Source of the DNA: Prevotella sp. | GTDB taxonomy: Bacteria; Bacteroidota; Bacteroidia; Bacteroidales; Bacteroidaceae | NCBI GenBank assembly: GCA_017474845.1 | Contig: JAFVGS010000050.1 | Coordinates: 1-45,824 of the forward strand | Length of the DNA stretch: 45,824 bases | Direction of reading: 5' to 3' | In this document: positions 4,075 to 43,902 of the stretch, piece by piece | Layout of the letters: every line of letters begins with the position of its first letter | How positions within the stretch are numbered: position 1 is the first letter of the stretch | Position numbers and translations under genes: made by a program | The notes under the pieces: model-generated | The model's database searches: none | What the model was told of the DNA's origin: nothing | The model's input: only the letters and a program-made list of their open reading frames with translations

Positions 4075-5345
4075 AACAGGATAGGCAACAGACAGGCAAA
4101 CACGGTCCTGAAAAGGACTGGGCCCAGCGGCTGCGCGACCATCTGGCTGACTATGAAGCGCCTGTGCCTGATGATCTGTGGGAGAAGATCGAGGCGAGAC
4201 TGCCGAAGGAGGTAGTATGTCCGACGCCGACTCCGAAGAAAAAGGCAAGGACCGTGCCTTTGTGGGCGAGATGGGCTGCGGTAGCGGCGGTGTTTGTGGG
4301 AGGATTGGTGATTTTGTGGAAGGTAGAAGGTGGTATGTGGCGCTCGGCCGAAGGACGCTTGCTACCGGAGGGACGCAAGAATGAGAATAGATATGAGGCG
4401 GATCAGACCACCCCACCTAAAGGCACCCCTCCTAACTTAGGAGGGGAAAGCTGCGCACAGGGTAAGATCACACCCAAAGAGACGATTTCATCGGACGAAA
4501 AGACGGAGAAAGAGTCGGCAGAAAAGCCCATTCAGCCCATTCAGTCCATTTTATCTGAAGAAAAGCCCATTCTACCCATTCAGCCCATTTTATCTGAAGA
4601 AAAGCCCAAAGAGTCTGAGAAGCACCCAGAGGACGTAATTCGCGAGTTGGATCGGAAGATTATGGAATATGAACAGCGGCGAAGCCATAAAGCATCCCTC
4701 AACCTCTACGCCTCTAACGGCTTCGGCAACCAGTCGTTCCGCAACGGTGTGCTGATGAGCCCGGAACTGCTCGCCAATTACGATTACTATACGAATCCCA
4801 GTAGCGTTGGTACGCGTGGCGGCAACAGTCCTGTCTATCTGGCGAACCACGAGGAGCGGCAACAGTTCTACCAGCCCATCTCATTCGGACTGAGCGTGAA
4901 TATCCCCATTTCATCGGGTTTCTCCGCATCGTCGGGTGTCGTCTATACCCGTCTGCGCTCTGACTTCACGAGTATCGCGAACAGTCTCGTCTACGAACGG
5001 CAGCAGACACTCCACTATGTGGGCATCCCGCTGACGGTACAGTATAACGTGTGGCAATGGCGCGGGCTGAATGTCTATGCGACGGCTGGGGGACAAGTGG
5101 ACTTCAATGTGAAGGCGAACGTGACGACGGAGGGTTCGGAGACAACGTTGGAAAAGGACGACTTGCAGTGGTCGGTGAATGCGGCTGTTGGCTTGCAGTA
5201 TAATTTCATCCCGCAATTAGGCATCTATGCCGAGCCAGGCGTGAAGCACTACTTCGACAACGGCAGTCACATCCAGAACTTCTTCAAACACCGCCCCACG
5301 AACTTCAACCTTCAGATTGGACTGAGACTAAACATGGGCAAATAA
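4071..5345 (+). CDS. Dual membrane-spanning anti-sigma-like protein with outer-membrane barrel (Dma-like)
   Basis: 424 residues. Residues 1-62 are soluble and contain APVPDDLWEKIEARLP, a motif common to cytoplasmic N-termini of Bacteroidota anti-sigma proteins, followed by KKKAR (positive inside). Residues 64-84 form one transmembrane helix (VPLWARWAAVAAVFVGGLVI). Residues about 88-205 are a low-complexity, Pro/Glu-rich linker. Residues about 206-424 are alternating strands ending in NFNLQIGLRLNMGK, an outer-membrane beta-barrel of the PF13568 kind. One chain would then cross both membranes, as described for the Dma proteins of Bacteroides thetaiotaomicron that control ECF sigma factors and vesiculation. 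The ATGA overlap with the sigma gene supports this. The linker contains two repeat-derived stretches listed separately. Confidence 0.8.
   Translation: MKQDRQQTGKHGPEKDWAQRLRDHLADYEAPVPDDLWEKIEARLPKEVVCPTPTPKKKARTVPLWARWAAVAAVFVGGLVILWKVEGGMWRSAEGRLLPEGRKNENRYEADQTTPPKGTPPNLGGESCAQGKITPKETISSDEKTEKESAEKPIQPIQSILSEEKPILPIQPILSEEKPKESEKHPEDVIRELDRKIMEYEQRRSHKASLNLYASNGFGNQSFRNGVLMSPELLANYDYYTNPSSVGTRGGNSPVYLANHEERQQFYQPISFGLSVNIPISSGFSASSGVVYTRLRSDFTSIANSLVYERQQTLHYVGIPLTVQYNVWQWRGLNVYATAGGQVDFNVKANVTTEGSETTLEKDDLQWSVNAAVGLQYNFIPQLGIYAEPGVKHYFDNGSHIQNFFKHRPTNFNLQIGLRLNMGK
4426..4446 (+). repeat. Perfect palindrome inside the linker coding region
   Basis: Arms CCCCTCCTAA and TTAGGAGGGG flank one C, a 21-base palindrome lying in frame in the periplasmic linker of the Dma-like protein and coding part of TPPNLGG. 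A related hairpin with a CCCCTCCT core lies at 10473-10492 at a gene end. Confidence 0.85.
4521..4611 (+). repeat. 39-base (13-residue) tandem repeat in the linker
   Basis: Two full units of 39 bases start at 4521 and 4560, and a partial third starts at 4599. They encode EKPIQPIQSILSE, EKPILPIQPILSE and EKPKESE. Inside each unit the sequence CCCATTCAG repeats with a 9-base period. The tract would let the periplasmic linker change length in 13-residue steps. Confidence 0.85.
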
Positions 5346-5426
5346 CAAACCACTAATTACACGAATTTCACTAATTTTGCTGCGCATGAATAATTAGTTT
5401 AATTAGTGTAATTAGTGGTTGTTATT
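5341..5426. terminator. Bidirectional hairpin overlapping both convergent stop codons
   Basis: The 5' arm 5341-5376 pairs with 5392-5426 over about 35 bp, with three mismatches and one bulge. The 5' arm is three 9-base units (CACTAATTA, CACGAATTT, CACTAATTT; 5351-5377). The TAA of the Dma-like gene (5343-5345) and the reverse TAA of the response regulator (5422-5424) both lie inside the arms. It probably ends transcription from both sides. Confidence 0.8.
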
Positions 5427-6120
5427 CTACTAATAATTGTAGGCCGACGCCGCGGACGGTCTTGAGCTGGATGCGGGGTTCGTCGGAGAGGAGCTTGCGG
5501 AGCTTGTTGACGAAGACATCGAGGGAACGGGAGGCGAAATAGTCATCTTCGGTGTTCCAGAAGCGGCTGAGGATCGCCTCACGGCGCACGACGTTGTTCT
5601 TGTTCTCTGCCAGCAGTTGGAGGATCTGCGCCTCGCGCACGGTGATGGTCTGCGAGAGGTTGGTCTCGTCGTTGCGCAGTGTGGCGTGATCAGCGTCGAG
5701 GGTGTACTTGCCGAGCCGATAGTGGCTGGTCTCCTTCTGCGTCTTCGCCCCACCCCGCATCTTCATCAGCGCCTGGATATGGGCGTCGAGCTCTTCGGGC
5801 ACGAAGGGTTTCTTCACGTAGTTGTTGATGCCGAGCCGGTAGCCGGCCTTCACGTCGTTGGGCGAAGTGAGGGCCGAGGTGAAGATGATGATCACGTCGC
5901 CGTCGGTTTCACGGATGCGCTCCACCATCTCAAAGCCGTTCATCACGGGCATGTCGATGTCGGATATAATGACGTCGGGGCGGGTCTCCTGCCAGGCCTG
6001 GAGGCCTTCCTTGCCGTTGGTGGCGGTGGTCACGGAGTAGCCGCCGATGATGTCCTCGAGACCGGTCTTCTCGATATACGCTAACGATGCGTCGTCTTCA
6101 ACCAAGAGTAGTTTGATCAT
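5422..6120 (-). CDS. Response regulator, OmpR family
   Basis: 232 residues. The receiver domain (about 1-120) has the acidic pocket VEDD (residues 7-10), phospho-acceptor Asp54 in IISDIDMPVMNG, the conserved Thr/Ser in FTSA and the conserved Lys in YVKKPF. The winged-helix effector (about 130-232) ends in SLDVFVNKLRKLL and VRGVGLQLL, characteristic of OmpR/PhoB proteins. It overlaps nothing but starts 2 bases after its sensor kinase stop, forming a two-gene operon read right to left. The closest described type in Bacteroidales is RprY; I do not assign that name. Target genes cannot be read from the window. Confidence 0.92.
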   Translation of the reverse strand: MIKLLLVEDDASLAYIEKTGLEDIIGGYSVTTATNGKEGLQAWQETRPDVIISDIDMPVMNGFEMVERIRETDGDVIIIFTSALTSPNDVKAGYRLGINNYVKKPFVPEELDAHIQALMKMRGGAKTQKETSHYRLGKYTLDADHATLRNDETNLSQTITVREAQILQLLAENKNNVVRREAILSRFWNTEDDYFASRSLDVFVNKLRKLLSDEPRIQLKTVRGVGLQLLVE

Positions 6121-6122
6121 AA

Positions 6123-7415
6123 TTATTGTTTGGGAATAAATAACGTGAATTCGGAGTATTTGTCTTTCTCGCTGGTGACGGTGACCTTGCCGCCGTGGGC
6201 CTGCATGACCTGATCGACGTAGTTGAGACCGAGGCCGAAGCCGGAGACACCGCCCTTGCGGTTCTGTTCGTGGACGGCCGCACGGCCGAACTTGTCGAAG
6301 ATGATGCGCTGGTCGTCGCGGGAGATGCCGATGCCGTTGTCGCGCACCTTCAACAGGACGTACCTGTCGCTGTCCTGCGTGGTGATGCTGATCTCGATGT
6401 TTTCCTTCGAGTACTTGATGGCGTTGTCGACGAGATTGGAGATGGCTTCGGCGAGGTATTGTTCATCGGCGAGGACGTGACGGACGAGTAAATCTACGAT
6501 GAAATCGATATTTTTGTCCGTTTTCGCCTTCGCTTTCTCCACGATGTCGGCGATGACGGGCTCGAGGTTGACGTCCTGTTTGTTGAGGATGAGCTTCTTG
6601 TTTTCGAGCTTCGAGATGGTGAGCAGCTTGTTGACGAGGGCCAGCAGGTGCTCCGCCTCGCTCTCGATGATGGCGTAGTACTTCTCCTTGATCTCCGGTT
6701 TGTCGTCGACCTTGCCGCTGTGGAGGAACCGGGCGCCCATGATGATCGACGAGAGGGGCGACTTCATGTCGTGGACCATCGCGTAGGAGAAGTCGTTGCG
6801 GAGGTCGGCCATCATCTTCTGTTCGTCGAGATAGCGCAGCAGCCTCAGGAGGATGGCGCCGAAGAGGATGAGGATGATGGCGCTGGCGAGGAAGAGCGGA
6901 CTGAGCCGGCGGGCGAGCGACGGATAGGGATTGTTGAGGGCGAGCCGGATGCCGCGCGACTGGTCGCGGCGGGTGCTGAACACACGCGTCTTCAACGCTG
7001 TGGATGACAGGCGGTCGTTGTTCTGGCGGAGGATGCGGCCGTCGGCGTCGACTTCCATCACGGTGAAGTCACGGTCGAGGCTCACCACGCTGAGCAGCGA
7101 GTCGACATAGAGCGCGAGGGTGTCGAGCGACACTTCGGAGTGATAGAGATGACTCAATGCGTCGTTCATTCCCTCGACCGACGATTCCAGCGAGAGGTCG
7201 CCACGCAGATGGGGCAGGCTGAGCGTGTCGCCGACGGACACGATCTCCGCCCGCTCGTAACTCTCGTAGAACATGCCCCACGTGAGCTGGTTGCCGGCAC
7301 GCTCGGAGATGTCGCGCACGGCCGAACGGTAGGTCATCCACATGTAGAGTCCCAACAGCAGCATCACCGCTACCATCGCCCCTACGGACACATATTTATA
7401 TTTGTTTTTCTGCAT
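6123..7415 (-). CDS. Sensor histidine kinase
   Basis: About 430 residues. Start chosen at the ATG at 7415 (MQKNKYKYVSVGAM), because the longer frame begins with a TTG that lies inside the -7 promoter element. One transmembrane helix lies at about 10-28, then a periplasmic domain of about 130 residues and a second helix near 175-195. The dimerisation helix carries the phospho-acceptor His in AMVHDMKSPLSSI (about residue 214). The ATPase domain shows the N box (NLVDNAIKYS), G1 (VRDNGIGIS), F box and G2 (GFGLGLNYV). It is paired with the OmpR-type regulator downstream. It resembles RprX-type kinases. The mRNA appears to be nearly leaderless. Confidence 0.92.
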   Translation of the reverse strand: MQKNKYKYVSVGAMVAVMLLLGLYMWMTYRSAVRDISERAGNQLTWGMFYESYERAEIVSVGDTLSLPHLRGDLSLESSVEGMNDALSHLYHSEVSLDTLALYVDSLLSVVSLDRDFTVMEVDADGRILRQNNDRLSSTALKTRVFSTRRDQSRGIRLALNNPYPSLARRLSPLFLASAIILILFGAILLRLLRYLDEQKMMADLRNDFSYAMVHDMKSPLSSIIMGARFLHSGKVDDKPEIKEKYYAIIESEAEHLLALVNKLLTISKLENKKLILNKQDVNLEPVIADIVEKAKAKTDKNIDFIVDLLVRHVLADEQYLAEAISNLVDNAIKYSKENIEISITTQDSDRYVLLKVRDNGIGISRDDQRIIFDKFGRAAVHEQNRKGGVSGFGLGLNYVDQVMQAHGGKVTVTSEKDKYSEFTLFIPKQ

Positions 7416-7424
7416 ATTTGAGGG

Positions 7425-7456
7425 CAAAGTTAAGGCAAATATTTCACTTCTCCAAA
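7425..7456 (-). promoter_or_regulatory. Promoter of the two-component operon
   Basis: Read on the reverse strand: TTTG (7453-7456), 20-nt spacer, TAACTTTG (7425-7432), then 9 nt to the ATG. Both boxes match the phylum consensus at ideal spacing, so the transcript should begin only a few bases before the start codon. Confidence 0.75.
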
Positions 7457-7509
7457 AGAATTAACGTAAAGATAACATTTAAATAACCTTAAATGCATGT
7501 AGTTTTTCA

Positions 7510-7517
7510 TACCTTTG
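7510..7517 (+). promoter_or_regulatory. Putative -7 element upstream of the DUF3836-like gene
   Basis: TACCTTTG fits TAnnTTTG and lies 43 bases before the start codon. No TTTG is found at the expected -33 position, so the promoter may need an activator or be weak. Confidence 0.45.
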
Positions 7518-7560
7518 CAGCGTCTAACAGGCAAAAGTTTAATTTTAAAAGCAAAGAGTT

Positions 7561-8055
7561 ATGGAATCAATTATCACTATCGCAACCGTTTTAACGATGT
7601 ATTTCAACGCCGCTAACGACGTTAACTCTCAGTATTTGTACAACTCAGACCTGGAAGACGGCGTCATCCACAAGATTGAGGTCTATGAGCAAAAGGCCGA
7701 GGGCCAGATGTGCGCCAAGATGGAGTATCGTTACAGCTACGACGAGCAGGGAAGGCTGACCACCCGTGAGGTGATGCGCTGGGACGAGGCCAAGAAGGAC
7801 TGGGTGAACGACTTCCGTCACACCTATAAATATTATAAGAAGGGGTACAACATGGAGACCAGCAAGTGGGATTCTGCCCAGCAGACTTACGACCTGCCGA
7901 TGGAGGTGACGCTCTACCGCGAGGTGGCTCCCAATGTGACATCGGTGAGGACGTTCAAGATGAATGAGGCGAAGAACGACATGTATCTCGTCAACAGCCT
8001 GCTCTGCATGGAGTCATTAGAGCAGATCTGCGACCGTCTGCTGGCTATCTATTAA
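7561..8055 (+). CDS. DUF3836-like secreted protein
   Basis: 164 residues. The N-terminus MESIITIATVLTMYFNAAND is a short hydrophobic segment that could act as a signal. The body has Y-x-Y-D-E-Q-G-R-L repeats of the kind YSYDEQGRLTTREVMRWDEA and KDWVNDFRHTYKYYKKGY, which match the layout of DUF3836 and related beta-hairpin repeats of Bacteroidales (W and Y at regular intervals, D-x-x-G-R turns). The family's function is unknown. It stands alone, with its own -7 box and a terminator behind it. The long reverse frame opposite is a shadow. Confidence 0.65.
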   Translation: MESIITIATVLTMYFNAANDVNSQYLYNSDLEDGVIHKIEVYEQKAEGQMCAKMEYRYSYDEQGRLTTREVMRWDEAKKDWVNDFRHTYKYYKKGYNMETSKWDSAQQTYDLPMEVTLYREVAPNVTSVRTFKMNEAKNDMYLVNSLLCMESLEQICDRLLAIY

Positions 8056-8103
8056 GGCTTTCTTTCTCTCTCTACATATTAAAAACCTTTAAAAGGGTTT
8101 TAG

Positions 8104-8138
8104 AATCCGTAACCGGCGTAGGCTGATTACGGATTTTT
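8104..8138 (+). terminator. Terminator after the DUF3836-like gene
   Basis: Arms AATCCGTAA (8104-8112) and TTACGGATT (8127-8135) enclose a 14-nt loop and lead into TTTTAG. It separates this gene from the next transcription unit. Confidence 0.75.
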
Positions 8139-8141
8139 AGT

Positions 8142-8149: not shown

Positions 8150-8174
8150 TGGCGATTTTCTCAATACAAATAAC

Positions 8175-9032
8175 ATGGAACTGATTAAAGACAAGACTTT
8201 TGGAGGCGAGCGGCCGCTGTTCGCCACTCACGACCTGAGACTGGAGCGTGTGACGATTACCGACGGAGAGTCGGGCATCAAGCAATGCCGGAATATGGAG
8301 GCATACGACTGCAAGTTCTACGGCAAGTACCCCTGGTGGCACGTCGACGGCGCGAAGATCGACAACTGCTATTTCGCGATGGATTCGCGCTCGGCCATCT
8401 GGTACACGAACGACCTGGTGATGACAAACTCGCGCATCGATGGGCCGAAGTTCTTCCGAGAGATGAAGAACCTGACTCTGGAGAATGTGGAGATTACCGA
8501 TGCCGACGAGACGTTCTGGAAGGTGGACGGCATCCGGATCAAGAACGTGAAGCTGCACGGGGGCACGTATCCGTTTATGTTTTCACAGAATATCTACGTC
8601 GACGGACTGGAAAGCGACTCGAAATACGTGTTCCAATACTGCAAGAACGTGGAGGTGCACAACGCGAAGATCCTGACGAAGGACTCGTTCTGGGAGTGCG
8701 AGAACGTGGAGGTCTACGACTCGGTGCTCGACGGCGAATACTTAGCCTGGCACTCGAAGAACGTGCGGTTAGTGAACTGTCACCTCGCCGGCGAGCAGCT
8801 GCTCTGCTATACGGAGAACCTCGTGTTGGAGAACTGCACCATCGACAAGATGTGCGACCGTATGTTCGAGTATTCGACCGTCGAAGCTGACATCCGCGGA
8901 CATATCGAGAACATCAAAAATCCCACTTCCGGACACATTATCGCCGATTCCATCGGTAGTATTACCATCGACGAGAACGTCCGGCAACCGAACAACTGCG
9001 TGATAGACATAAGAACAAATAAAAAGACATAA
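8175..9032 (+). CDS. DUF3737 right-handed beta-helix protein
   Basis: 285 residues without a signal peptide. Short strands repeat every 20-22 residues (for example KNLTLENVEITDADETFW, KNVEVHNAKILTKDSFWE, ENLVLENCTIDKM), the pattern of a right-handed parallel beta-helix, and the protein matches the DUF3737 family as I know it. These proteins are often adjacent to a MalY/PatB aminotransferase, as here. The molecular role is unknown; enzymes and scaffolds share the fold. The last eight codons (DIRTNKKT) are made from the ACATAAGAACA-type repeat that continues past the stop, so the C-terminus has probably been extended by that repeat. Confidence 0.85.
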   Translation: MELIKDKTFGGERPLFATHDLRLERVTITDGESGIKQCRNMEAYDCKFYGKYPWWHVDGAKIDNCYFAMDSRSAIWYTNDLVMTNSRIDGPKFFREMKNLTLENVEITDADETFWKVDGIRIKNVKLHGGTYPFMFSQNIYVDGLESDSKYVFQYCKNVEVHNAKILTKDSFWECENVEVYDSVLDGEYLAWHSKNVRLVNCHLAGEQLLCYTENLVLENCTIDKMCDRMFEYSTVEADIRGHIENIKNPTSGHIIADSIGSITIDENVRQPNNCVIDIRTNKKT

Positions 9033-9223
9033 TAACAGAATAACATGATTTTTAGACAAAAGAACAGAAAAGAGACATAATAACAGACTAACATATTTTA
9101 GACATAAGGACATAAGAACAAAAGAATTAAAAGCAAATTAAAAACGTACTCATCTAAAAGAAAAATATGTTCTTATGTTCTTCTGTCTAGAAAAAGAAAA
9201 AAACGTTAGTATGTTAGTCTGTC
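9008..9223. repeat. Intergenic block of 7-9 nt period repeats and their inverted copies
   Basis: GACATAATAACAG occurs at 9026 and again at 9074. The run GACATAAGGACATAAGAACA (9101-9120) is matched inverted by TGTTCTTATGTTCTTCTGTC (about 9168-9187) at 18 of 20 positions, and ACAGACTAACATA (9084-9096) by the inverted copy near 9210-9222. The block overlaps the end of the DUF3737 gene and stops 17 bases before the aminotransferase. It may form a large stem. Confidence 0.75.
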
Positions 9224-9239
9224 AAAAAAAAGAGTTAAT

Positions 9240-12679: not shown

Positions 12680-15622
12680 ATGAACCTGAAGAAATCCATC
12701 CTTGGCGCCATCGTGCTTTTGGGATCCCTTCCCTTGCAGGCCGCCGACTATAACATCCTTGACTTCGGTGCCAAAGCCGACACCACCGTACTCTCGACCA
12801 CAGCCCTGCAGCGCGCCATCGACTGCTGCTCGGAGGCTGGAGGCGGAAGAGTCGTCATCCCCACAGGTAACTACAAGACCGGCTCTCTCATCCTGAAGTC
12901 GAACGTACATCTTTATATAGAACAGGGAGCGACGCTCTACGGAAGTACTGACATCAGGGATTATCTGCCGATGAAATCGGACTATGTGTCGCTCCGCACC
13001 CAGACTACCACCATCCAACTGATCTATGCCGACAAAGTGCACAACGTGGTCATCGACGGCACAGGCACCATCGACGGACAAGGACGGGCCTTCGTCAAAA
13101 AGACCTGGAACGACGAGGGCATCACCCGTCCGCACCTGATACGTTTCATACAGAGCAGCGACATCACCATCCGGAATATCACCCTTCGCAACAGCGGCTG
13201 CTGGATGCAGCACTATCTGGCCTGCGACCGGCTGCACATCGATGGAATCAAGGTTTTCAACCGCAATAACTACAATAACGACGGTCTCGACCTCGATGGT
13301 TGTCACGATGTCATCGTGAGAGGAATGATGTCTGACAGCGACGACGACGGCATCACGCTGAAGTCCACTTCGCCCCGTCTCTGCGAGAACATCCGCATCT
13401 CAGACTGTGTAGTGAGCAGTCACTGTAATGCTGTGAAACTTGGTACGGAGACCAACGGTGGCTTCCGCAACATCAACATCAGCGGCATCGTGGTGAAGCC
13501 GAGCAGCGACCAGCGGGAGAAGTTCTTCGGACAGTGGATCGGTTCGTCGGCCATCTCGTTAGAGATCGTTGATGGCGGCACGATGGAGAACATCAACGTT
13601 TCCGATTTCACCGTTGAGGACACAGAGTCGCCCATCTTCATCCGTCTGGGCAATCGCGGACGAGGCTATCAACTGAGAGACAAAGGAACTGCGTTGAGCG
13701 GCAAAGGCAATGAAGACACCATTACCGAACTGATTCCCATCGATCATGTGGGCACCATCGACGGCATACGCCTTCATCATATTCAGATCCACCATGCAGG
13801 ACAGACGGGCTGTTCCATCACAGGTCTGCCCGGACATCCTGTGCGCAACGTGTTCCTCTCCGACATCACCTTCCATCACAAGGGCGGCGTGAAGGCCAGC
13901 GAACTGGCGGAAATTGCCGATTCCATCGCCAATGAGAAAGAGAAATCCTATCCTGAAGCCACGATGTGGGGCAACCTGCCTGCCAAGGGTTTCTTCGTGC
14001 GTCACGCCCGTAATGTACAGTTCTCCAACATCGAGATACTCACCGATGAACCCGATGCCCGTCCTGACTTCGTGCAGACAGACACCGAGGGCTGGGGAGA
14101 CCAGGGCGACGGCACCTATCTGAACCCCGTACTCAATGCCGACTTCTCCGATCCCGACGTCATCCGCGCGGACAAGAAGTACTATATGGTGGTCTCAGAC
14201 TTCCATTTCATCGGCATGCAGGTGCTTGAAAGCGACGATATGGTGAACTGGCGCTATATCTGTCAGGTCTATCGCCGCTTCGATGAGCCGGGCTGGGACA
14301 GCAACCAGCACTATGCCGGTGGATCATGGGCACCAACCATCCGCTATCACAACGGACTCTACTACATCTTCTTCTGTACTCCTGAGGAAGGTCTTTATAT
14401 GACTACCGCCAAAGACCCGCGAGGCCCGTGGGCCCCACTCCATCTCGTGCAACGGGTGGAGAAATGGGAAGATCCCTGTCCCTTCTGGGATGAGGACGGT
14501 CAGGCATATTTGGGTCGGAGCCGTCATGGGGCAGGTCCCATCATCGTCCATAAGATGTCTCCCGACGGTAAGACGCTGCTCGACGAGGGTGTGACCGTCT
14601 ATGAGGGTCCCATCGCAGAAGGCACGAAATGGCTCAAGCGCAACGGATGGTACTATCTCATCATCCCAGAGGGAGGCGTAGGCACAGGCTGGCAGACAGT
14701 GCTCCGTTCACGCAACATCTATGGCCCATACCAACGGAAGATTGTGCTTGAACAAGGTTCCACCAAGATTAACGGGCCTCACCAAGGGGCTTTGGTCGAT
14801 GCACCAGACGGCAGTTGGTGGTTCTATCACTTCCAGGAGACGCCCGTTCTGGGACGTGTAGTCCATCTGCAACCCGTCCGCTGGCAGGATGACTGGCCAC
14901 TGATGGGTGTCGATCTCGACGGCAACGGCATCGGCGAACCCGTTAAGCGATGGGGGATGCCTATTATAGAGGAAAGTGGAAAGTGGAAAGAGGAAAGAGA
15001 AAACCAGGCAAGCAATTCAAACGGGAGCCCAAACATTTCCTCCGATTTCATCGATGAATTTTCCCTTGCTCAAGACAAATCTCCTTCCATTTTCCTCTCT
15101 CCTCTTTCATCCAAACTCCATCCCGCCTGGCAATGGAACCACAATCCAGACGACGCTCATTGGAGTCTGACAAAACGGAAAGGCTTCCTTACCATCGACG
15201 CCCAGCCTGCCGATAGTCTGAAGGCCTGCCGGAATATGCTCACGCAGAAAGTTGTGGGCTATCTGAGTAAGAGCACAACAATCGTCGAGGCCAAAGGCGA
15301 CTGCTACGCCGGTCTTTGCTGTACGGGCAAGCTCTTTACGGGCATCGGTCTCTGCAAAAAGGGCGTATTCATCGAACAAAACGGCCAACGCAGACTCATC
15401 AAGTCCGGCTCCTTCCCCCGTCTCTACCTGAAGGTCATCAACGACAACCAACAAAATCGCCACCAATACTTCTACAGCATTGATGGCGAGTCCTACCTTC
15501 CAGCCTGCGATCCCTTCCCCCTACGTGCTGGCTACTGGAAAGGCATCCGCGTCGGCCTCTTCTGTTACGGTCCCGATGGAATGGCGCAATTTGACTCCTT
15601 TAGGCAGTGCGTGCTGAGATAA
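12680..15622 (+). CDS. GH28-GH43 fusion enzyme, pectin degradation
   Basis: 980 residues from ATG 12680 (MNLKKSILGAIVLLGSLPLQAAD, signal peptide). Residues about 25-460 are a GH28 beta-helix (polygalacturonase type) with NNDGLDLDGC near 199, SDDDGITLK near 221 and SSHCNAVKLGTE near 248; these take the places of NTD, DD, GHG and RIK, a variant common in Bacteroidota relatives. After a short linker, residues about 480-760 are GH43: DFSDPDV (base), EDPCPFWDEDG (modulator) and EGPIAEGTKW (acid). The rest (about 815-980) is a concanavalin-like domain of the beta-xylosidase C-terminal type. Both active sites look intact. It probably cuts a galacturonan backbone and trims side chains outside the cell. 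Residues about 765-813 contain a repeat-derived insert. Confidence 0.88.
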   Translation: MNLKKSILGAIVLLGSLPLQAADYNILDFGAKADTTVLSTTALQRAIDCCSEAGGGRVVIPTGNYKTGSLILKSNVHLYIEQGATLYGSTDIRDYLPMKSDYVSLRTQTTTIQLIYADKVHNVVIDGTGTIDGQGRAFVKKTWNDEGITRPHLIRFIQSSDITIRNITLRNSGCWMQHYLACDRLHIDGIKVFNRNNYNNDGLDLDGCHDVIVRGMMSDSDDDGITLKSTSPRLCENIRISDCVVSSHCNAVKLGTETNGGFRNINISGIVVKPSSDQREKFFGQWIGSSAISLEIVDGGTMENINVSDFTVEDTESPIFIRLGNRGRGYQLRDKGTALSGKGNEDTITELIPIDHVGTIDGIRLHHIQIHHAGQTGCSITGLPGHPVRNVFLSDITFHHKGGVKASELAEIADSIANEKEKSYPEATMWGNLPAKGFFVRHARNVQFSNIEILTDEPDARPDFVQTDTEGWGDQGDGTYLNPVLNADFSDPDVIRADKKYYMVVSDFHFIGMQVLESDDMVNWRYICQVYRRFDEPGWDSNQHYAGGSWAPTIRYHNGLYYIFFCTPEEGLYMTTAKDPRGPWAPLHLVQRVEKWEDPCPFWDEDGQAYLGRSRHGAGPIIVHKMSPDGKTLLDEGVTVYEGPIAEGTKWLKRNGWYYLIIPEGGVGTGWQTVLRSRNIYGPYQRKIVLEQGSTKINGPHQGALVDAPDGSWWFYHFQETPVLGRVVHLQPVRWQDDWPLMGVDLDGNGIGEPVKRWGMPIIEESGKWKEERENQASNSNGSPNISSDFIDEFSLAQDKSPSIFLSPLSSKLHPAWQWNHNPDDAHWSLTKRKGFLTIDAQPADSLKACRNMLTQKVVGYLSKSTTIVEAKGDCYAGLCCTGKLFTGIGLCKKGVFIEQNGQRRLIKSGSFPRLYLKVINDNQQNRHQYFYSIDGESYLPACDPFPLRAGYWKGIRVGLFCYGPDGMAQFDSFRQCVLR
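14969..15110 (+). repeat. In-frame heptad run and inverted partner in the fusion gene
   Basis: From about 14974 the unit GGAAAGT/GGAAAGA repeats four times with a period of 7. Some 70 bases later TTTTCCTCTCTCCTCTTTC (15088-15106) is its approximate inverted copy. The segment encodes a hydrophilic stretch (ESGKWKEEREN to SPLSSK) at the junction between GH43 and the C-terminal domain. Confidence 0.7.
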
Positions 15623-15666
15623 AAGGAACACAATCCAAGCTTTTTTACGTCGGCGGCAGCAAATTT

Positions 15667-15699
15667 TTCACTTTTCACTCTTCACTTTTCACTTTTTTT
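15667..15699. repeat. Heptad repeat TTTTCAC upstream of tRNA-Arg
   Basis: Four units of TTTTCAC (one as TCTTCAC) with an exact 7-base period end in a T run just before the -7 box of the tRNA gene. The T run may also end transcription of the fusion gene. Confidence 0.8.
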
Positions 15700-18854: not shown

Positions 18855-18859
18855 AGGAT

Positions 18860-19222
18860 TTACGATTTACTATTTTCTATCTGGTCTATGAGTTCACGGA
18901 GTTCTTCGACACTGATCTTCTCTTCCTTGACGAAAGAGGAGACGGCCGAGAGGTAGGAGTCGTTGAAGTAGTTCTTGATGACACCAGCGATGGACTTGCG
19001 GCCATACTCAGCCTCTGTGATGAGGGGATAGTACTGGTAAGTGTTACCAAACTGCTTGTGGTCAAGAAAGCCTTCCTTCTCCAGAATACGAACCATCGTG
19101 GAGAGCGTATTGAAGTGCGGGCGGGGTTCGTCGTAGTACTCCAAGAGTTCCTTAACGAACATCGGACCATGCGCCCAATACAAATCCATGATCTCCTTTT
19201 CCTTATTTGTCAGTTTTTTCAT
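18860..19222 (-). CDS. BlaI/MecI/CopY family repressor
   Basis: 120 residues: an N-terminal winged helix (MKKLTNKEKEIMDLYWAHGP, then FNTLSTMVRILEKEGFLDHK) and a C-terminal dimerisation helix pair (YLSAVSSFVKEEKISVEELR). Length and layout are typical of BlaI/MecI. These dimers bind palindromic operators and are inactivated by cleavage in the linker. The gene leads a three-gene operon with the M56/TonB protein and a TPR protein. Three dyads of the form AACTAA-N5-TTAGTT cover its promoter, so autoregulation is likely. The last codons lie in an ATTTACG repeat that continues into the short intergenic gap. No beta-lactamase gene is nearby. Confidence 0.92.
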   Translation of the reverse strand: MKKLTNKEKEIMDLYWAHGPMFVKELLEYYDEPRPHFNTLSTMVRILEKEGFLDHKQFGNTYQYYPLITEAEYGRKSIAGVIKNYFNDSYLSAVSSFVKEEKISVEELRELIDQIENSKS

Positions 19223-32432: not shown

Positions 32433-32468
32433 ATTTACGATTTTATCAATTTACGATTTACGATTTTT
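32433..32468. repeat. ATTTACG run in the rhomboid leader
   Basis: ATTTACG units recur with a period of 7-8 bases, lying between the promoter box and the rhomboid ATG. The same unit occurs at the end of the BlaI-type gene near 18860. Confidence 0.7.
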
Positions 32469-32959: not shown

Positions 32960-33005
32960 ATAAAAATACGTGGAGGCCTCAATTGAAGCCTCCACGTTAT
33001 TTTTC
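32960..33005. terminator. Bidirectional terminator between HU and GH43 genes
   Basis: ACGTGGAGGC (32968-32977) pairs with GCCTCCACGT (32988-32997), 10 bp, 10-nt loop. A-rich before and TATTTTT after, so it works for HU and also for the reverse GH43 gene. Confidence 0.9.
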
Positions 33006-33017
33006 AGTTCTCACTTT

Positions 33018-34667
33018 TCAATTCTCACTTATCCTGATCCAATCGGCATCTACCCAGCCGCGATCGCATTTGGGATCACTCTCGGCAGCGACAAAGCCGA
33101 ACTTGGCACCAATCCATTTACCCTCCTTCATCTGGAACGTATTGCCACAGTCGAAGAATTTCTTACCATTCTGACTCCAAGCAAAGCGTACCTTTGAATC
33201 CTTGACAGACAGCCTCAAGTAGATATCCTCGTGGATACCCGGCTTGTAGTCAATCTGATCCACAGCCGTCGGTTTCAATGTGGCAATGACAGTTTCCGTC
33301 TGAGCATTGCCTTTGTCGGCACCCTTGCAGGTCATTTGCACCAGTTCAAACGTCTGCCCCACCCTGCGGACGACGAGGGCACTATAGTCGAGACCCATCA
33401 TGACTAGACCGCCAAACTGGCCGTCGGCCTTTGAGGTCATACGCAGTTTTGTCGTCACGGTAAAAGCGTCGGCAGGTGTTTTCTGCAGCAGCAGATTGGG
33501 CACCTCCCAGAAGTTTTTCCAATCCTTGGAGAGCTTATAGGTGTAGATACGGAATGTGCCAAAGGCAGTAGGGACACCATATTTCTCATCATAGTTCGCA
33601 TGCCACTGCCACTGTTTCCCCATGACAGGCGCATCAAACTCATCGCTCTCCATAGGATTCACGATCGGAGAATTATCCATTGAACATTTCGGCTTTCGGA
33701 ATGTCTTCACCGGCTCACCGTTCTTACCCATCATGGGCCATCCCGACGACCAGTCTACGGGGTTCAAATGCACCACTCGACCATAAGCCTCCTTATCCTG
33801 GAAATGCAGGAACCAATCCTCACCATATTTCGTATGTACCCATCCACCCTGATGAGGGCCGTTAATGTCGGTCTTACCCTGGGCGAGCACGATCTTATGT
33901 TCGTAAGGGCCGTAGGGCGATTTGGATCGCATAGCGAGCTGGAAGCCAGTAGGCACACCACCGGCAGGACACATAATCCAATACCAGCCGTCACGCTTGT
34001 AGAACTTCGGCCCTTCACAAGTACGATTTTCCGTACCATTACCGTCGAAAACAATCACAGGCTGTCCGACGGCTTTCGTACCATCAGCCGACAACTCGCG
34101 CACCGTCAGCACAGAGGCGAACTTACTGCGCGAGTTTGCCCAGCCATTCACTAAATAGCAGCGCCCGTCGTCGTCCCACAGAGGGCAAGTGTCGATATAC
34201 CCCTGTCCTTTGATCACACACACAGGCGCCTCCCACTTGCCGGCAGGATCCTGCGTCTTCACCATATATACACCAAAGTCAGGATCGCCCCAATAGATAT
34301 AGTACCAACCGTCATGATAGCGGATGGAGGGAGCCCATACACCTTGACCGTGCCGGGGCGTACTGAAATACTTCAGCAGTTCCTCACCGCCCTCATAGAG
34401 ATTTCCCAAAGCGTGGTTGATGATCTCCCAGTTCACCAGGTCCTTCGAATGCAGGATGGGCAGGCCTGGCACACACTGGAACGATGAAGCTGTCAAATAA
34501 TAATCCTCCCCGCTGGCACCCACGCAGACGTCAGGGTCAGAGTAGTCGGCATTGATGACAGGATTCGTATAGGTACCGTCACCATTATCCGGCGACCACA
34601 CCTCAGATACAAACTGGGCATGAGCCATCACAGGGATGACCCATGCCAGAACCCATATTTTTTTCAC
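33018..34667 (-). CDS. Glycoside hydrolase family 43 (beta-xylosidase/arabinofuranosidase type)
   Basis: 549 residues with signal peptide (MKKIWVLAWVIPVMAHAQ). The propeller covers about 30-320: NADYSDPDV (base), DTCPLWDDDGRCYLV (modulator) and CEGPKFYKRDGWYWI (acid); INGPHQGGWV and YGRVVHLNPVDW are typical. The second half (about 340-549) is the concanavalin-like beta-xylosidase C-terminal domain ending GWVDADWIRI. It is the same architecture as the GH43 half of the fusion at 12680. The start is GTG at 34667, which lies in a GAAAAGGTG repeat; the only in-frame ATG nearby would cut off the signal peptide. It follows the kduD-like gene by 26 bases in one operon. Confidence 0.9.
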   Translation of the reverse strand: MKKIWVLAWVIPVMAHAQFVSEVWSPDNGDGTYTNPVINADYSDPDVCVGASGEDYYLTASSFQCVPGLPILHSKDLVNWEIINHALGNLYEGGEELLKYFSTPRHGQGVWAPSIRYHDGWYYIYWGDPDFGVYMVKTQDPAGKWEAPVCVIKGQGYIDTCPLWDDDGRCYLVNGWANSRSKFASVLTVRELSADGTKAVGQPVIVFDGNGTENRTCEGPKFYKRDGWYWIMCPAGGVPTGFQLAMRSKSPYGPYEHKIVLAQGKTDINGPHQGGWVHTKYGEDWFLHFQDKEAYGRVVHLNPVDWSSGWPMMGKNGEPVKTFRKPKCSMDNSPIVNPMESDEFDAPVMGKQWQWHANYDEKYGVPTAFGTFRIYTYKLSKDWKNFWEVPNLLLQKTPADAFTVTTKLRMTSKADGQFGGLVMMGLDYSALVVRRVGQTFELVQMTCKGADKGNAQTETVIATLKPTAVDQIDYKPGIHEDIYLRLSVKDSKVRFAWSQNGKKFFDCGNTFQMKEGKWIGAKFGFVAAESDPKCDRGWVDADWIRISEN

Positions 34668-35500: not shown

Positions 35501-35531
35501 TGATTTAAAATTTATAATTTATAATTTTGAT
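35501..35531. repeat. ATTTATA heptad run in the kduD leader
   Basis: ATTTAAA, ATTTATA, ATTTATA and ATTTT follow with a period of 7 bases between the -7 box and the start codon of the kduD-like gene. Confidence 0.7.
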
Positions 35532-37169: not shown

Positions 37170-37400
37170 CTACGGGACGGGATCGTAGCCGCTTCCTCCC
37201 CAGGGGTTGCATCTCAGGATGCGCCAGACGGCCAGCCAGAGACCCTTGATGGGACCGTGTTTCATGATGGCCTGCTTGGCATATTCGCTACAGGTGGGCG
37301 TGAATCGGCAGGAGGGTCCCAGCAGCGGGGATATACATATCTGGTAGAACCTGATGGGCTGAACCAGCAGCCAAGACAATATGTGAGACAGCCAGTTCAC
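37170..37400 (-). CDS. yidD: Membrane protein insertion efficiency factor YidD
   Basis: 76 residues, the family's usual size. An N-terminal amphipathic helix ([18 protein letters not shown]), then the signature [20 protein letters not shown] and [24 protein letters not shown], with three conserved Cys. YidD assists YidC-mediated insertion at the inner membrane. It overlaps the end of rnpA by four bases, the order found in most bacteria. Confidence 0.97.
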
Positions 37401-37431
37401 CTTTTCACCCTTTCATTTTTCACCTTTTCAA
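37396..37431. repeat. TTTTCAC-type run coding the RnpA C-terminus
   Basis: Units of CTTTTCAC, CCTTTCAT, TTTTCAC and CTTTTCA with a 7-8 base period cover the end of rnpA and the start of yidD. On the reverse strand they encode the basic tail [10 protein letters not shown]. Confidence 0.75.
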
Positions 37432-38579: not shown

Positions 38580-38586
38580 CTCTGTC

Positions 38587-39600: not shown

Positions 39601-40856
39601 CAGATTCCAAACTCCTTGCGGATATCGTCCACACGGTCAAGTTTCTCCCACGTGAACAGTTCCACATCGATGGTCTTCGTCTCGTGGTAATGGCTGGTGA
39701 ATGTCTTCTTGATCATTTCACACTTCCGCCCCATGTGTCCGTAGGCAGCCGTCTCGCTGTACATGGGCTGGCGCAGCTTCAGCGTGCGCTCGATGGCCTT
39801 CGGACGGAGGTCGAAGAGTTTTTCAATCTTCTTGGCAATCTCACCGTCGCTCATATTGACCTTGCTGCGGCCATAGGTGTTCACGTAGATGTTCATGGGC
39901 TTGGCGATACCGATGGCATAGCTCACCTGAACCAACATCTCATCGGCTACACCTGCCGCCACCATGTTCTTCGCGATATGACGGGCGGCATAGGCTGCCG
40001 AGCGGTCCACCTTCGAGGAGTCCTTTCCAGAGAAGGCACCGCCGCCGTGAGCGCCCTTGCCACCATAGGTATCCACGATGATCTTACGGCCCGTGAGACC
40101 TGTATCACCGTGAGGACCACCGATGACGAACTTGCCCGTGGGGTTCACATAGTACTTGATATCCAGTCCAAACAAATCAAGCACCTTCTGCGAATGGATC
40201 TGCTGCTTCACACGGGGGATGAGGATATTGATGACGTCGTCCTTGATGCGGGCCAGCATCTTCTCGTCCTCGTCAAACTCGTCGTGCTGCGTAGAGACGA
40301 CGATGGTGTCGATACGCTCTGGGATGCCGGCATCGCTGTACTGGATGGTCACCTGACTCTTGGCATCCGGACGCAGGTAGGTCATCTCCTTACCCTCCTT
40401 GCGGATGTCGGCCAAGGTGCGCATGATGAGGTGTGCCAAGTCGAGCGAGACGGGCATGAAGTTCTCCGTCTCGTTGGTGGCATAGCCGAACATCATACCC
40501 TGGTCGCCGGCTCCCTGCTCTTCCTCATTGCCGTTGTCGACACCACGGTTGATGTCGGCACTCTGCTCGTGGATGGCACTGAGAATACCGCAGGAGTTGC
40601 CGTCGAACTGGTACTCCGCCTTCGTATAGCCAATGCGCTTGATAGTGTTGCGGGCGATGGTCTGCAAGTCGATATACACCTCGCTGCGCACCTCACCCAT
40701 GATCACTACCTGTCCTGTGGTGACAAACGACTCGATGGCGCAGCGGGCCTTGTCGTCGTAAGCCAGGAACTGGTCTAATATCGCATCAGAGATCTGATCC
40801 GCCACTTTGTCGGGATGGCCCTCAGAGACTGATTCTGATGAAAACAAATAACTCAT
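39600..40856 (-). CDS. metK: S-adenosylmethionine synthetase
   Basis: 418 residues. [20 protein letters not shown] at the start, [21 protein letters not shown] (the ATP-binding hexapeptide region), [20 protein letters not shown] and [19 protein letters not shown] are all intact. It makes SAM from methionine and ATP in the cytoplasm. A region of about 20 residues near 230 is longer than in E. coli MetK, as usual in this phylum. It heads the operon with DUF4271, hemD, rnpA, yidD and tyrS. Its leader contains a CTAAATT heptad run. Confidence 0.98.
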
Positions 40857-40858
40857 TC

Positions 40859-40890
40859 TCTCTAAATTCTAAATTTCCAATTCTTAATTA
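40859..40890. repeat. CTAAATT heptad run before metK
   Basis: CTAAATT, CTAAATT, TCCAATT and CTTAATT follow with a period of 7 bases. The run begins three bases before the metK ATG and ends in the stop codon of the M16 peptidase gene. Confidence 0.7.
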
Positions 40891-43707
40891 CTCTGCGGGC
40901 AGCATGATAACCTCTGCACGGTTGCCGGCCTTCAGGATCTCAGCTGCGATGGCACTGATGCTCTCAGGTGTCTGAGCGTTCACCAATTTCTCGTAGTCAG
41001 TGTGGAAGTCGATGCCCCACTTGCGCCACAGATTGATCACACTCAGCCAGTAGTTATTCTGCTTCAACTGGTCACCGTGGCTCTTCAACATATACTCCTT
41101 CACTTTCTGGAGTTTGTCGGCATCACAGGTCTTGGTCAGAGCATCCACCTCGTCACGCAGGATCATGATGGCGGTGTCGGCCTTCTCAGGCTTCATGGGA
41201 CAGATGGCGAGAATCTGGGCTGTTGTCTCGAAGTCATTGCGATCGATGCCAGACAACGACTGCACAGTATAAGCGGCGCTGGCTTCCTCACGGATCTTCT
41301 TCAGATATTCCATATCAAGGATCTGGGAAATCATATCAATCTTGACATCATTCTCTGCTGTCAGAGGGATGTCCTTCGTATACCACTCCATCACAGCATA
41401 AGCCTTCGGTGTCTCACCCTTATGCTTGAAGTTATTGATGACAACACCTTTGAATTCGGTTGCCACATTCGGACTCTTTACCACTTCCTTCTGTGCCGGC
41501 AGAGATGCGAGATAGGTCTCAATCAGCGGACGGATGGCCTCTTCGTCGTAGTTGCCGATAATGGTGAAGGTGAAGGCAGCTGCGTTGGCCGTCTGCTCCT
41601 TAGCCATCTCGAGGATGCGGTCGTAGTCCACCAGTGCCAGGTTTTCCGCCGTCATCGCCTTGTTGCGCGGATTATTGCAGGTCAGCGTAGCCGTCAGCGA
41701 GTCCTGAAGCACAGCCTCGGGCTGCAGCAGGCGGTTCTTCAGATTAATCTCAGCGGTCTGCATCAGGTTGTCGTAGGACTTCTGGTCCTTGGCGATGTTG
41801 CTGAAGTAGAGGTATGCCAGCTGCAGCATGGTCTCCACATCCTTCGGCGTAGAGCTGCCGTTGACATATACTCGGTTGGGATTCATCGAGAGCGATGCAC
41901 TGGCAATCTTGCCAGCGAGGGCTTTCTCCAACTCGGTGTGCGAGAAGTTTCCGAGACCGCTGGCCTCAATCACGTCGTTGAACATCTTGATGTTGGCGAA
42001 GTCCTTCTCTCCATAGAGTGCCGAGCCTCCAAAGCCCTCACCACGCAGCAGCACCTGGTCCTTCTTCAGGTCAGTCTGCTTCAGCACAACGGTGGCTCCG
42101 TTCGAGAGCTTCAGTTCCGTATAACCGAAGGTATCATTCTTCGTCTCGCTGACGATGGCACCCTTCTGAGGTGTCTCCGTCATCAGGGGTTCGTCCTTTA
42201 CATTATCCACATAAGCCTCGATCTGTGCGCTGCGGGCATTGGCAACAGCAGCCTTCAGACCCTCCTCTGTGGGATATGTGGCACCCTCCTTCTCAGTATT
42301 AATACTATACACCACAAAGTTACTGTCATTAGGCAGGATGTATTCCTTAATCAAGGCATTGACGGCTTCCACGGGAATCATCGGCACATACTGCTTCATC
42401 GTGGCATAGGTATAATCGATGCTGGGGAGAGGCTCGTTGTTCAGGAAATTCTGTACACACTGGTTGACGAACTGGCTGTTGTAGCGCTTGTCCTTGTTCG
42501 AGTACTGCTTGTCGAGCTGACTGGTATAGTTCTGCTTGAAACGGTTATACTCTGTGGGGGTGAATCCGAACTCCGCAGCACGACGGGCCTCGGTGAGGGC
42601 AGTCGTGACGGCAGCCTCTGTCTGTCCGTCCTTCGGATTCACGTCGAGCTCAAAGGCATCCATCGTGCGCGAGAAGATATACTTGCCATAGGAGGCTGAC
42701 GAGCTCACGAACGGGCTCTCGGGCTTCTCGGCATATTCCTTCAGACGATCGTTGAGCATGGTGATGGCCGCATCTTTCAGATAGTCGGCAAGCATATAGG
42801 CCATCGTCCCCTTCAAAGAGTCGGGGAAGGTCTCGTGCTTCATCATCATCCACACTTCATTGGTGCGCTGCTCCTTGTCCTTGTCGATCACGTAGATGGC
42901 TTCCGCGTTGTCAGGCACAGGCTCCTTCGTTACCAAGGCACGGTTCTCAGGCAGCTCGATGGGCGAGAACATATCCTTGATCTTCTGTTCAATCTTGTCT
43001 ACATCCACATCACCTACTACGATGATACCCTGATTGTCGGGACGATACCACTTCTCATAGTACGACTGCAGGAAGGGGCGCTCGAAGTTGTCGATGATCT
43101 CCATCAGTCCGATAGGCATACGGTGACCATACTTCGAACCCGGATAGAGTTTGGGCAGGTCGCGCTCCAGCATACGCATGATGGCACTGGTGCGCAGGCG
43201 CCATTCCTCGTGGATCACGCCACGCTCCTTCTCTATCTCCTCCTGCTCCAGCAGCAGACCGTCAGCCCAGTCGTAGAGGATGAGCAGACACGAGTCGATG
43301 ATTCCCTCGCGCGTTGTAGGTACATTACTTATATTATAAACCGTCTCATCGATGCTGGTATAGGCATTCAGGTCACCACCGAACTGTATACCCACGCTCT
43401 CACACCAGCGCAGCAGCTCGTTGCCCTTGAAGTGCTTCGAGCCGTTGAAGGCCATGTGCTCCAGGAAGTGGGCCAGTCCGCGCTGGGTATCATCCTCCTG
43501 AATGGAGCCCACACGCTGGGCGATGTAGAACTCGGCTCGGTTCTCGGGCCAGTTGTTGTGACGGATGTAATAAGTCAATCCGTTGTCGAGTTTGCCGATG
43601 CGCACATCGGGATCTACGGGAATCGATGGCATCTCCATCTGAGCCATCATTGTCACTGTGCCGATCATGACCAGCAGCAGACTAAGGAATAGTTTTTTCA
43701 TCTTCAT
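40888..43707 (-). CDS. M16 family zinc metallopeptidase, exported
   Basis: 939 residues with signal peptide (MKMKKLFLSLLLVMIGTVTMMAQ). The inverted zinc motif HFLEH is at residues 80-84, and the third ligand lies in EQEEIEKERGVIHEEW near 160. Two pairs of M16 half-domains follow; the second half lacks HxxEH, as in pitrilysin-type enzymes where only the N-terminal half is catalytic. Size and layout match insulinase-family proteases found in the periplasm or outer envelope of Bacteroidales. They degrade peptides within a closed chamber. It precedes metK by 31 bases, so readthrough is possible, and has its own -7 box at 43734. Confidence 0.95.
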   Translation of the reverse strand: MKMKKLFLSLLLVMIGTVTMMAQMEMPSIPVDPDVRIGKLDNGLTYYIRHNNWPENRAEFYIAQRVGSIQEDDTQRGLAHFLEHMAFNGSKHFKGNELLRWCESVGIQFGGDLNAYTSIDETVYNISNVPTTREGIIDSCLLILYDWADGLLLEQEEIEKERGVIHEEWRLRTSAIMRMLERDLPKLYPGSKYGHRMPIGLMEIIDNFERPFLQSYYEKWYRPDNQGIIVVGDVDVDKIEQKIKDMFSPIELPENRALVTKEPVPDNAEAIYVIDKDKEQRTNEVWMMMKHETFPDSLKGTMAYMLADYLKDAAITMLNDRLKEYAEKPESPFVSSSASYGKYIFSRTMDAFELDVNPKDGQTEAAVTTALTEARRAAEFGFTPTEYNRFKQNYTSQLDKQYSNKDKRYNSQFVNQCVQNFLNNEPLPSIDYTYATMKQYVPMIPVEAVNALIKEYILPNDSNFVVYSINTEKEGATYPTEEGLKAAVANARSAQIEAYVDNVKDEPLMTETPQKGAIVSETKNDTFGYTELKLSNGATVVLKQTDLKKDQVLLRGEGFGGSALYGEKDFANIKMFNDVIEASGLGNFSHTELEKALAGKIASASLSMNPNRVYVNGSSTPKDVETMLQLAYLYFSNIAKDQKSYDNLMQTAEINLKNRLLQPEAVLQDSLTATLTCNNPRNKAMTAENLALVDYDRILEMAKEQTANAAAFTFTIIGNYDEEAIRPLIETYLASLPAQKEVVKSPNVATEFKGVVINNFKHKGETPKAYAVMEWYTKDIPLTAENDVKIDMISQILDMEYLKKIREEASAAYTVQSLSGIDRNDFETTAQILAICPMKPEKADTAIMILRDEVDALTKTCDADKLQKVKEYMLKSHGDQLKQNNYWLSVINLWRKWGIDFHTDYEKLVNAQTPESISAIAAEILKAGNRAEVIMLPAE

Positions 43708-43733
43708 AAGTTTGGTTGTTATAAATTTGGGTG

Positions 43734-43741
43734 CAAAATTA
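43734..43741 (-). promoter_or_regulatory. -7 element of the M16 gene
   Basis: Reverse-strand TAATTTTG lies 26 bases before the ATG. There is no TTTG at the -33 position. Confidence 0.55.
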
Positions 43742-43799
43742 CTGCTTTTTTTCTGATTAGACGCAGAAGTCTTCTAAAAACTACGTTTTTTTATTTTTT

Positions 43800-43902
43800 G
43801 TTTATAGTTTATGGTTTATTGTTTATAGATGATAACCTTGCAAGCCATTCGTTCTGCCTATAGAAGTAATCATCTATAAACCATAAACTTTAAACTATAA
43901 AC
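43800..43902 (-). terminator. Large hairpin of GTTTATA heptads after xerD
   Basis: Arm 43800-43832 is four heptads (GTTTATA, GTTTATG, GTTTATT, GTTTATA) plus GATGA. Its inverted copy at 43870-43902 matches at 30 of 33 positions, with a 37-nt loop. The element begins four bases after the stop of the recombinase gene and probably ends its transcript. Confidence 0.8.

Follow-up and report, generated by a model that had tools for sequence, protein, structure and literature searches.

Short-period tandem arrays in Prevotella are probably, in good part, the arms of small palindromic elements that also lie within genes

The stretch of DNA analysed here (the window) is a 45,824-nucleotide contig (JAFVGS010000050.1; C19 in our numbering) of a Prevotella sp. 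draft genome (GCA_017474845.1, hereafter G000; 2.15 Mb in 93 contigs, 58.9% complete), and the four named hits of one of its proteins are metagenome-assembled genomes of rumen Prevotella(ceae). The window carries protein genes, including those for an outer-membrane protein, a GH43-domain protein, an aminotransferase and the ribonuclease P protein, two tRNAs, which are its only known RNA families at gathering scores, and a series of degenerate tandem arrays with a unit of 7-10 bases (Table 1). A first-pass annotation had described these arrays as a class with a common architecture, a sequence varying from place to place and a constant position at gene ends. We found such a class, enriched between genes, and based on sequence comparison we consider that its members are probably, in good part, the paired or solitary arms of small palindromic elements that are dispersed and tolerate coding sequence.

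Each listed place was enclosed in a box, drawn after the finding had been seen, and compared with 1000 shuffles of its own letters. In 14 of the 16 boxes the run score was equalled by at most 4 shuffles; the weak boxes were 9000-9050 (43 of 1000) and 40855-40885 (12 of 1000). Inverted partners lie within the window for four listed places (5351/5391, 9101/9166, 14971/15080 and 43800/43876), all of which are predicted to fold, with z-scores against mononucleotide shuffles of -6.2 for 5351-5417 (-21.5 kcal/mol), -7.2 for 9005-9233, -4.1 for 14971-15108 and -8.6 for 43800-43902 (-36.7 kcal/mol). The element at 43800-43902 is not found in the related genome G136 (88-90% identical to the window over 32400-37900), where another run occupies that site.

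Table 1. Periodic arrays and associated features of the window
Feature	Coordinates	Strand	Context
Period-9 array, left arm (CACTAATTA/CACGAATTT)	5351..5377		5 bp past stop of gene 4071-5345
Right arm, inverted (TAATTAGTG)	5391..5417		between convergent genes
GACATAAG-type arrays, period 8/10	9004..9126		at and past end of gene 8175-9032; 9000-9050 weak on its own
Inverted partner (TTCTTATG type)	9156..9233		ahead of gene 9240
GGAAAGT/GGAAAGA array, period 7	14971..15003	+	in frame, between GH43 and GH43_C2 domains of gene 12680-15622
C-rich inverted partner of 14971-15003	15080..15108	+	in frame; gene sequence lies between both arms
Core-like motif GGCGGCAGCAAAT	15652..15664		inner end of GTGAAAA-word array
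TTTTCAC array, period 7 (GTGAAAA word on other strand)	15665..15696		upstream of tRNA-Arg 15749-15823
ATTTACG array, short, period 7	18857..18880		junction of two minus-strand genes
ATTTACG array, period 7/8	32433..32466		between divergent genes; altered in G136
TTTTCAG/TTCTCAC array, period 14 (2 x 7)	33001..33030		in G136, same bases changed in successive units
Period-8 array, coding strand GGTGAAAA	34661..34695	-	junction of minus-strand genes
ATTTATA array, period 7	35503..35527		surrounding sequence absent from G136
GGTGAAAA-type array, period 8	37396..37430	-	spans end of ribonuclease P protein gene (37397-37825) and start of next gene
TCTAAAT x2, weak alone	40861..40875		G136 junction holds ATTTACG-type run (by eye)
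Left heptamer arm GTTTATA x4 of full palindromic element	43800..43826		inverted copy at 43876..43902
Core of 43800-43902 element	43827..43875		reverse complement contains GATGATTACTTCTATAGGCAGA; resembles G018 cores
Right arm, inverted copy (TATAAAC)	43876..43902		G136 lacks the element and has another run

Beyond the window, the sequence covered comprised 1.04 Mb of G000 (about half of the genome), 356 kb of G136, and smaller pieces of G018 and other genomes, all drafts with one genome per species; genes were called with a home-made hexamer-based caller. Runs, defined as ungapped self-matches (match +1, mismatch -2, score at least 11), were counted between genes of G000 in a first sample of 428 kb (259 pieces) and then in the full 1.04 Mb (662 pieces, 151 kb). 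Periods 7, 8, 9, 10 and 11 gave 58, 62, 28, 10 and 9 runs in the larger sample, against 0.5, 0, 0, 0.2 and 0.5 in dinucleotide shuffles, and we take further peaks at 14, 16 and 21-22 to be multiples of these base periods. The excess was also present in the first sample, against both dinucleotide shuffles and an order-3 Markov model, and G136 gave 36, 26 and 12 intergenic runs at periods 7, 8 and 9. Within genes, G000 has 40 period-7 and 6 octamer arrays over 908 kb, and G136 has 51 and 2 over 310 kb; for each gene set, two dinucleotide shuffles gave 0-1 period-7 arrays and two codon-order shuffles none. These shuffles and the Markov model rule out chance composition. The runs are thus real, as first annotated, at a density that shuffled intergenic sequence does not reproduce, and microsatellites with units of 1-6 bases do not suffice to explain them, with periods 2-6 giving only 5 runs in all, against 3.1 in shuffles.

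Array length is roughly fixed (median 25-32 bp at periods 7-9), with a median of 4.4-4.6 units at period 7, mostly 3-4 units in octamer and about 3 in nonamer arrays; G136 also has some exceptionally long arrays, reaching 19.5 units. One of these, of about 19 GGAGTCA units, lies inside a predicted gene (contig C302, 15003-15137; L186), where a change of one unit would shift the reading frame, so that phase variation is possible. Instead of the separate unit at each place proposed at first, we found a limited vocabulary of recurring words: the consensus units of the 58 intergenic period-7 arrays fall into 11 clusters, where letter-shuffled units would be expected to give 24, and a single cluster takes in 27 of the 62 intergenic octamer arrays, AAAAAGGT. 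The commonest cluster of coding period-7 arrays differs by species, being GGAAAGA in G000 (12 of 40) and GGAGTCA in G136 (27 of 51).

The layout of the period-7 element is four G-rich words, a core and four C-rich words ([G-word]x4 - core - [C-word]x4), about 80-110 bp in all. Neighbouring period-7 arrays 15-130 bp apart, arrays with equal G and C excluded, formed 39 pairs, of which 34 were oriented G..C, 2 GG, 2 CC and 1 CG (G..C in 33 of 38 with a duplicate contig removed); at a score cut of 9, 221 arrays gave 39 pairs, 33 of them G..C. About one third of period-7 arrays belong to a detected pair, and octamer pairs are oriented likewise (10 GC, 0 CG). Arms match their own partner better than they match those of other pairs, with match scores of 14.5 against 9.7 in G000 (n=15; reached in 3 of 5000 permutations) and 16.8 against 9.7 in G136 (n=18; 0 of 5000), and orientation, matched arms and predicted folds together mark the elements as palindromic. 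A partner scoring at least 14 was detected for 33 of 181 arrays, both members of a pair counted, compared with 1.4% for the flanks of other arrays. The inverted copy that the first-pass annotation called frequent is therefore present at the four listed places and in this fraction of arrays, and does not extend to most of them. Among arrays with a G-C difference of at least 3, the motif GA[AT]TA[CGT] stands at the 3' (inner) end of 27 of the 86 coding G arrays and 17 of the 78 intergenic ones, and on the 5' (outer) side of only 0-2 and 1-2, respectively; GTGAAAA words are often followed on the inner side by ATTTGCTGCCGCC, as judged by eye.

Copies sharing sequence were found at different sites. 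GTTTACA-armed elements with related cores lie on four G018 contigs, and the core of the window element at 43800-43902 is close to theirs. In four pairs of like elements (C55/C23, C5/C5, t100/t100 and t184/t184), which include two hybrid kinds with unlike arms, homology covers 114-126 bp around the element; the fifth pair, C27/C28, shares an identical stretch of 880 bp and is uninformative. Elements also lie in frame in protein genes whose orthologs lack them. Of three in-frame inserts in a G136 gene of the MMPL family, the first (19 residues) is lacking in each of the 18 orthologs aligned, and the other two are in loops too variable to judge. Among eight aligned sequences of the GH43 gene, the left array, scored by eye, is present in four (G000, L235 of G136, L237 and L240) and missing from the other four (L236, L238, L239 and L241); L236, from G018, appears, also by eye, to have retained the right-hand side alone, as a C-rich run, and all eight stretches of this linker are open in frame. 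As a separate observation, in two copies on G136 contig C100 (L171; 31288-31393 and 34366-34471) a gene appears to take its start codon (AATT-ATGATTACC...) and opening codons from the core.

Related species carry different words at some shared sites, and in two genes examined, for a SpoU methylase and the GH43 protein, this extends to both arms. The operon junction at C89 126702 holds TTTCACC units in G000, TATAAAC units in G018, and TTTGAAC units followed by the core motif GATTACTTC in G136. The SpoU-methylase gene has arrays at two stretches in all three species, the second between the substrate-binding and methylase domains, with arms of GTTTACA-type/TGTAAAC in G000, GAGGAGT/ACTCCTC in G018 and GGAGTCA/ATTATCC in G136. 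Both arms of the GH43 linker are of GGAAAGW type in G000 and GGTGAGA type in G136, between flanks that are 93-95% identical. Unit number differed between species too, by a single 8-base unit at C35 19695 and a single 9-base unit at C17 20455, and C17 34079 showed a gain of 69 bp. Word changes and some states of presence or absence were scored by eye.

Position relative to genes was examined in gaps between tandem genes, with an array counted as stop-adjacent when it lay at most 10 bp from the stop codon of the upstream gene, an overlap of up to 20 bp being allowed. Stop-adjacent arrays numbered 57 of 94 in G000 (permutation mean 37.6, maximum 52 in 2000) and 43 of 68 in G136 (mean 26.4, maximum 37). 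Start adjacency, for which the called starts are uncertain, was below the permutation mean (28 of 94 against 36.6, and 19 of 68 against 25.6), so that elements tied to start codons are unsupported. The constant position at stop or start codons stated in the first-pass annotation hence reduces to an enrichment at stops, and the array at 14971 inside the GH43 gene, like the 40 period-7 runs in coding sequence of G000, departs from it altogether. The G-rich word is in sense in 44 stop-adjacent arrays against 10 in G000 and in 35 against 6 in G136; arrays farther from stops lean to the opposite strand (16 against 21, and 8 against 17). Array density in divergent as compared with tandem gaps is 0.65 against 2.14 per kb in G136 and 1.23 against 1.45 in G000.

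We propose that such an element would fold as a hairpin on single-stranded DNA and spread by some mobilising factor, that slippage of 7-9-base units would renew its arms, and that hairpin-templated copying from arm to arm would keep them matched, even across intervening gene sequence, as in the SpoU and GH43 genes. Elements would persist where an insert is tolerated, as it is past stop codons and in protein linkers. As 7 divided by 3 leaves a remainder of 1, all frames of a strand translate a heptamer array into one cyclic heptapeptide (SQESGVR from GGAGTCA, for example), and insertion of the array into a gene is thereby less costly when the word holds no stop. If correct, part of the heptamer repeats seen here would be arms of palindromic elements, the in-frame inserts and word changes would make these elements a natural record of fast, local DNA rewriting, and the in-frame copies would be a source of new protein loops.

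Several observations weigh against this proposal. For most arrays no partner was detected, the two arms are unlike in hybrid elements, nonamer pairs are mostly of the opposite orientation (8 CG, 2 GC), and only analogy ties periods 8 and 9 to the period-7 element. The core is short and varies from copy to copy: a scan of 60 genomes for one core pattern, allowing up to 2 mismatches, gave 1-2 copies in each of 6, which rules out one rigid core for all copies. In the four informative copy pairs homology ends 3-25 bp beyond the element, and only C55/C23 lies on two contigs, the other three each being on one contig at a distance of 0.46-3.5 kb. No clean junction was seen, and no target-site duplication established, at the cross-species sites compared, including the GH43 linker and C89 126702, and no parent transposon was found for the heptamer-armed elements. 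The SpoU-gene arms are matched in two of three species, those of G136 being unmatched. Of 293 G000 arrays tried, 27 could be placed in the available G136 sequence, and these, scored by eye, show about 8 word changes and a few changes in unit number, the rest being alike, altered or lost. Finally, because of the home-made caller, stop codons are firm and start codons uncertain.

The mobilising factor presents a further difficulty, as no mobilising gene is linked to the heptamer elements. A gene for a Y1 transposase of 258 aa, similar to the transposases associated with repetitive extragenic palindromic sequences (REP-associated tyrosine transposases, RAYT), lies on G000 contig C24 (L109 1465-2241) with TGTAACAGAGGGACGGTTCTTTTGTTACA-type repeats to either side of it. 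L109 and L107 contain no period-7 run, other, weaker Y1 matches of G000 and its relatives not having been examined in depth. For the one gene examined, the different flanking sequence rules out a REP/RAYT linkage and agrees with the initial view that the arrays are not a REP family, although a REP-like repeat exists in this genome. Separately, the TGTAACAGAGGGACGGTTCTTTTGTTACA-type repeat also occurs as an inverted pair near L015 5239-5299, and L015 2161-2204 holds a hairpin, CACCCCTAGCCCCTCCTGACTCAGGAGGGG, inside a called gene, with many G136 matches at about 91-98%.

Among the alternatives, purely local slippage, by which arrays would be born in place from 7-11-base units and never disperse, is unlikely. 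Loops of this size formed during replication slippage are too large for mismatch repair, and the differences in unit number between species, the long G136 arrays and the lack of excess at periods 2-6 all agree with such an origin. It does not account for recurring words, the narrow distribution of array lengths, an inner motif on one side only, matched inverted arms, or like copies at different sites. Somewhat less likely again are functional hairpins at RNA 3' ends, or for RNA stability, in which selection would keep pairing after stops and words would drift under compensation. Stop adjacency, the sense-strand bias, the matched arms and the predicted folds at four window places speak for these hairpins; against them, most arrays are without a detected partner and many lie inside coding sequence, an intrinsic-terminator scan of 5000-20000 and 32000-45000 listed no terminator coinciding with any window array, and pairing alone does not require tandem heptamers. 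A function in the transcript is possible and unproven.

Two further explanations come from published heptamer repeats, and neither has much to recommend it here. GGGNATC repeats of Xanthomonas and Nostoc are heptamers with four units preferred, near stops and on the coding strand (Rehm et al., 2015, PMC4692102), and the Prevotella arrays share this arrangement, as they would if they were G-quadruplex elements of the kind proposed there. Four GG or CC tracts are missing, however, from 66 of 99 period-7 arrays in G000 and 52 of 90 in G136, and copy number is nearly equal without and with them (medians of 4.4 against 4.4, and 4.6 against 4.5). The stop-side, coding-strand, four-unit pattern thus recurs in words without G tracts, so that a quadruplex need not be its cause; as a general cause it is ruled out, and we rate this explanation lowest. 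Binding sites for a post-transcriptional regulator near starts, as proposed for TAACTGA repeats (MacGregor, 2015, PMC4679880), are scarcely more credible: arrays do lie near starts in some operon junctions, and the GGTGAAAA words are A-rich, but start adjacency is under the permutation mean in both genomes and orthologs carry different words at some sites.

The dispersed palindromic element that we prefer shares features with several known repeats. The short tandemly repeated repetitive (STRR) sequences of heterocystous cyanobacteria are degenerate tandem heptamers located between genes, with several words per genome. The Prevotella arrays, too, are tandem degenerate heptamers enriched between genes, by description resembling STRR in the make-up of the arms and differing in phylum. 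Heptamer arrays as such are less novel than the first-pass annotation implied, since Xanthomonas, Nostoc, Beggiatoaceae and certain Bacteroidetes are known from the literature to have them (PMC4692102, PMC4679880); there is no agreed origin for the bacterial heptamer repeats (PMC4692102). Most Prevotella words differ from GGGNATC in lacking four G tracts, and a C-rich second arm and a core are present; coding copies are common in Prevotella and under-represented for GGGNATC, and the scarcity of GGGNATC between divergent genes is matched in G136, not clearly in G000 (PMC4692102). TAACTGA repeats are intergenic direct heptamers, sometimes together with other heptamers, in marine Beggiatoaceae, cyanobacteria and five Bacteroidetes, and in the BOGUAY genome lie mostly just upstream of start codons (PMC4679880); they thus involve one word on the start side, in contrast to the many words on the stop side in Prevotella.

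By behaviour and description, not by sequence, the Prevotella elements are closest to the Rickettsia palindromic elements (RPE), which are about 150 bp long and each encode a conserved peptide (PMC10969869, PMC2635572). Like RPE, they are small, palindromic and dispersed, and lie in frame in unrelated protein genes and elsewhere; they differ in phylum, in having tandem 7-base repeats as arms and in words that differ between related species at some shared sites. REP/RAYT sequences and miniature inverted-repeat transposable elements (MITE) are likewise short, palindromic and dispersed, some being inside genes (PMC10969869; intragenic enterobacterial repeat units, PMC2759123); the RAYT-type gene here has another repeat, and the excerpts of these papers describe no tandem-heptamer arms. 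Heptamer-armed or in-frame palindromic elements in Prevotella were not described in any of the open-access matches listed, subscription papers not being covered. A bolder idea, which we regard as tentative and on balance doubtful, is that Bacteroidota carry a superfamily, so far undescribed, of palindromic elements that tolerate coding sequence, perhaps also behind the cyanobacterial and Xanthomonas heptamers. Both arms would be repeatedly rewritten together as new tandem heptamer words by an enzyme, or by a process of replication, that sets the strand (G strand into the core) and how long an arm is (about 30 nt); at the extreme, this would be a template-driven activity that writes repeats.

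In other genomes the arrays were unevenly represented. The pattern GTGAAAAG matched in 17 of 60 genomes of the genus, with at least 20 overlapping matches in G000, G004, G013, G018 and G032, so that word families are patchy. In 80-kb Prevotella samples, G004 had 20 intergenic runs at periods 7-9, not one of them at period 7, whereas G059 had 11, G045 had 6, G016 had 3 and the low-GC G024 had 0. A GGAGTNN heptamer pattern was found in 22 of 198 genomes of the phylum and its backwards control, also a heptamer array pattern, in 30, which shows that heptamer arrays are common and says nothing specific of the GGAGTNN word. In samples of five distant Bacteroidota, intergenic runs were absent at periods 2-6 and numbered 15 at period 7 and 2 at each of periods 8 and 9, a density that is not representative, as four of the five were chosen on contigs with a pattern match.

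The window also holds three longer or isolated repeats. The outer-membrane protein gene 4071-5345 contains a 39-bp tandem repeat of 2.3 copies with AGCCCATTC-type 9-mers at 4520-4608, the aminotransferase gene 9240-10487 a perfect 10-bp repeat, CGGACTAACA x2.7, at 9656-9682, and an intergenic stretch at 27012-27097 a 42-bp tandem repeat of 2.0 copies with 79% matches.

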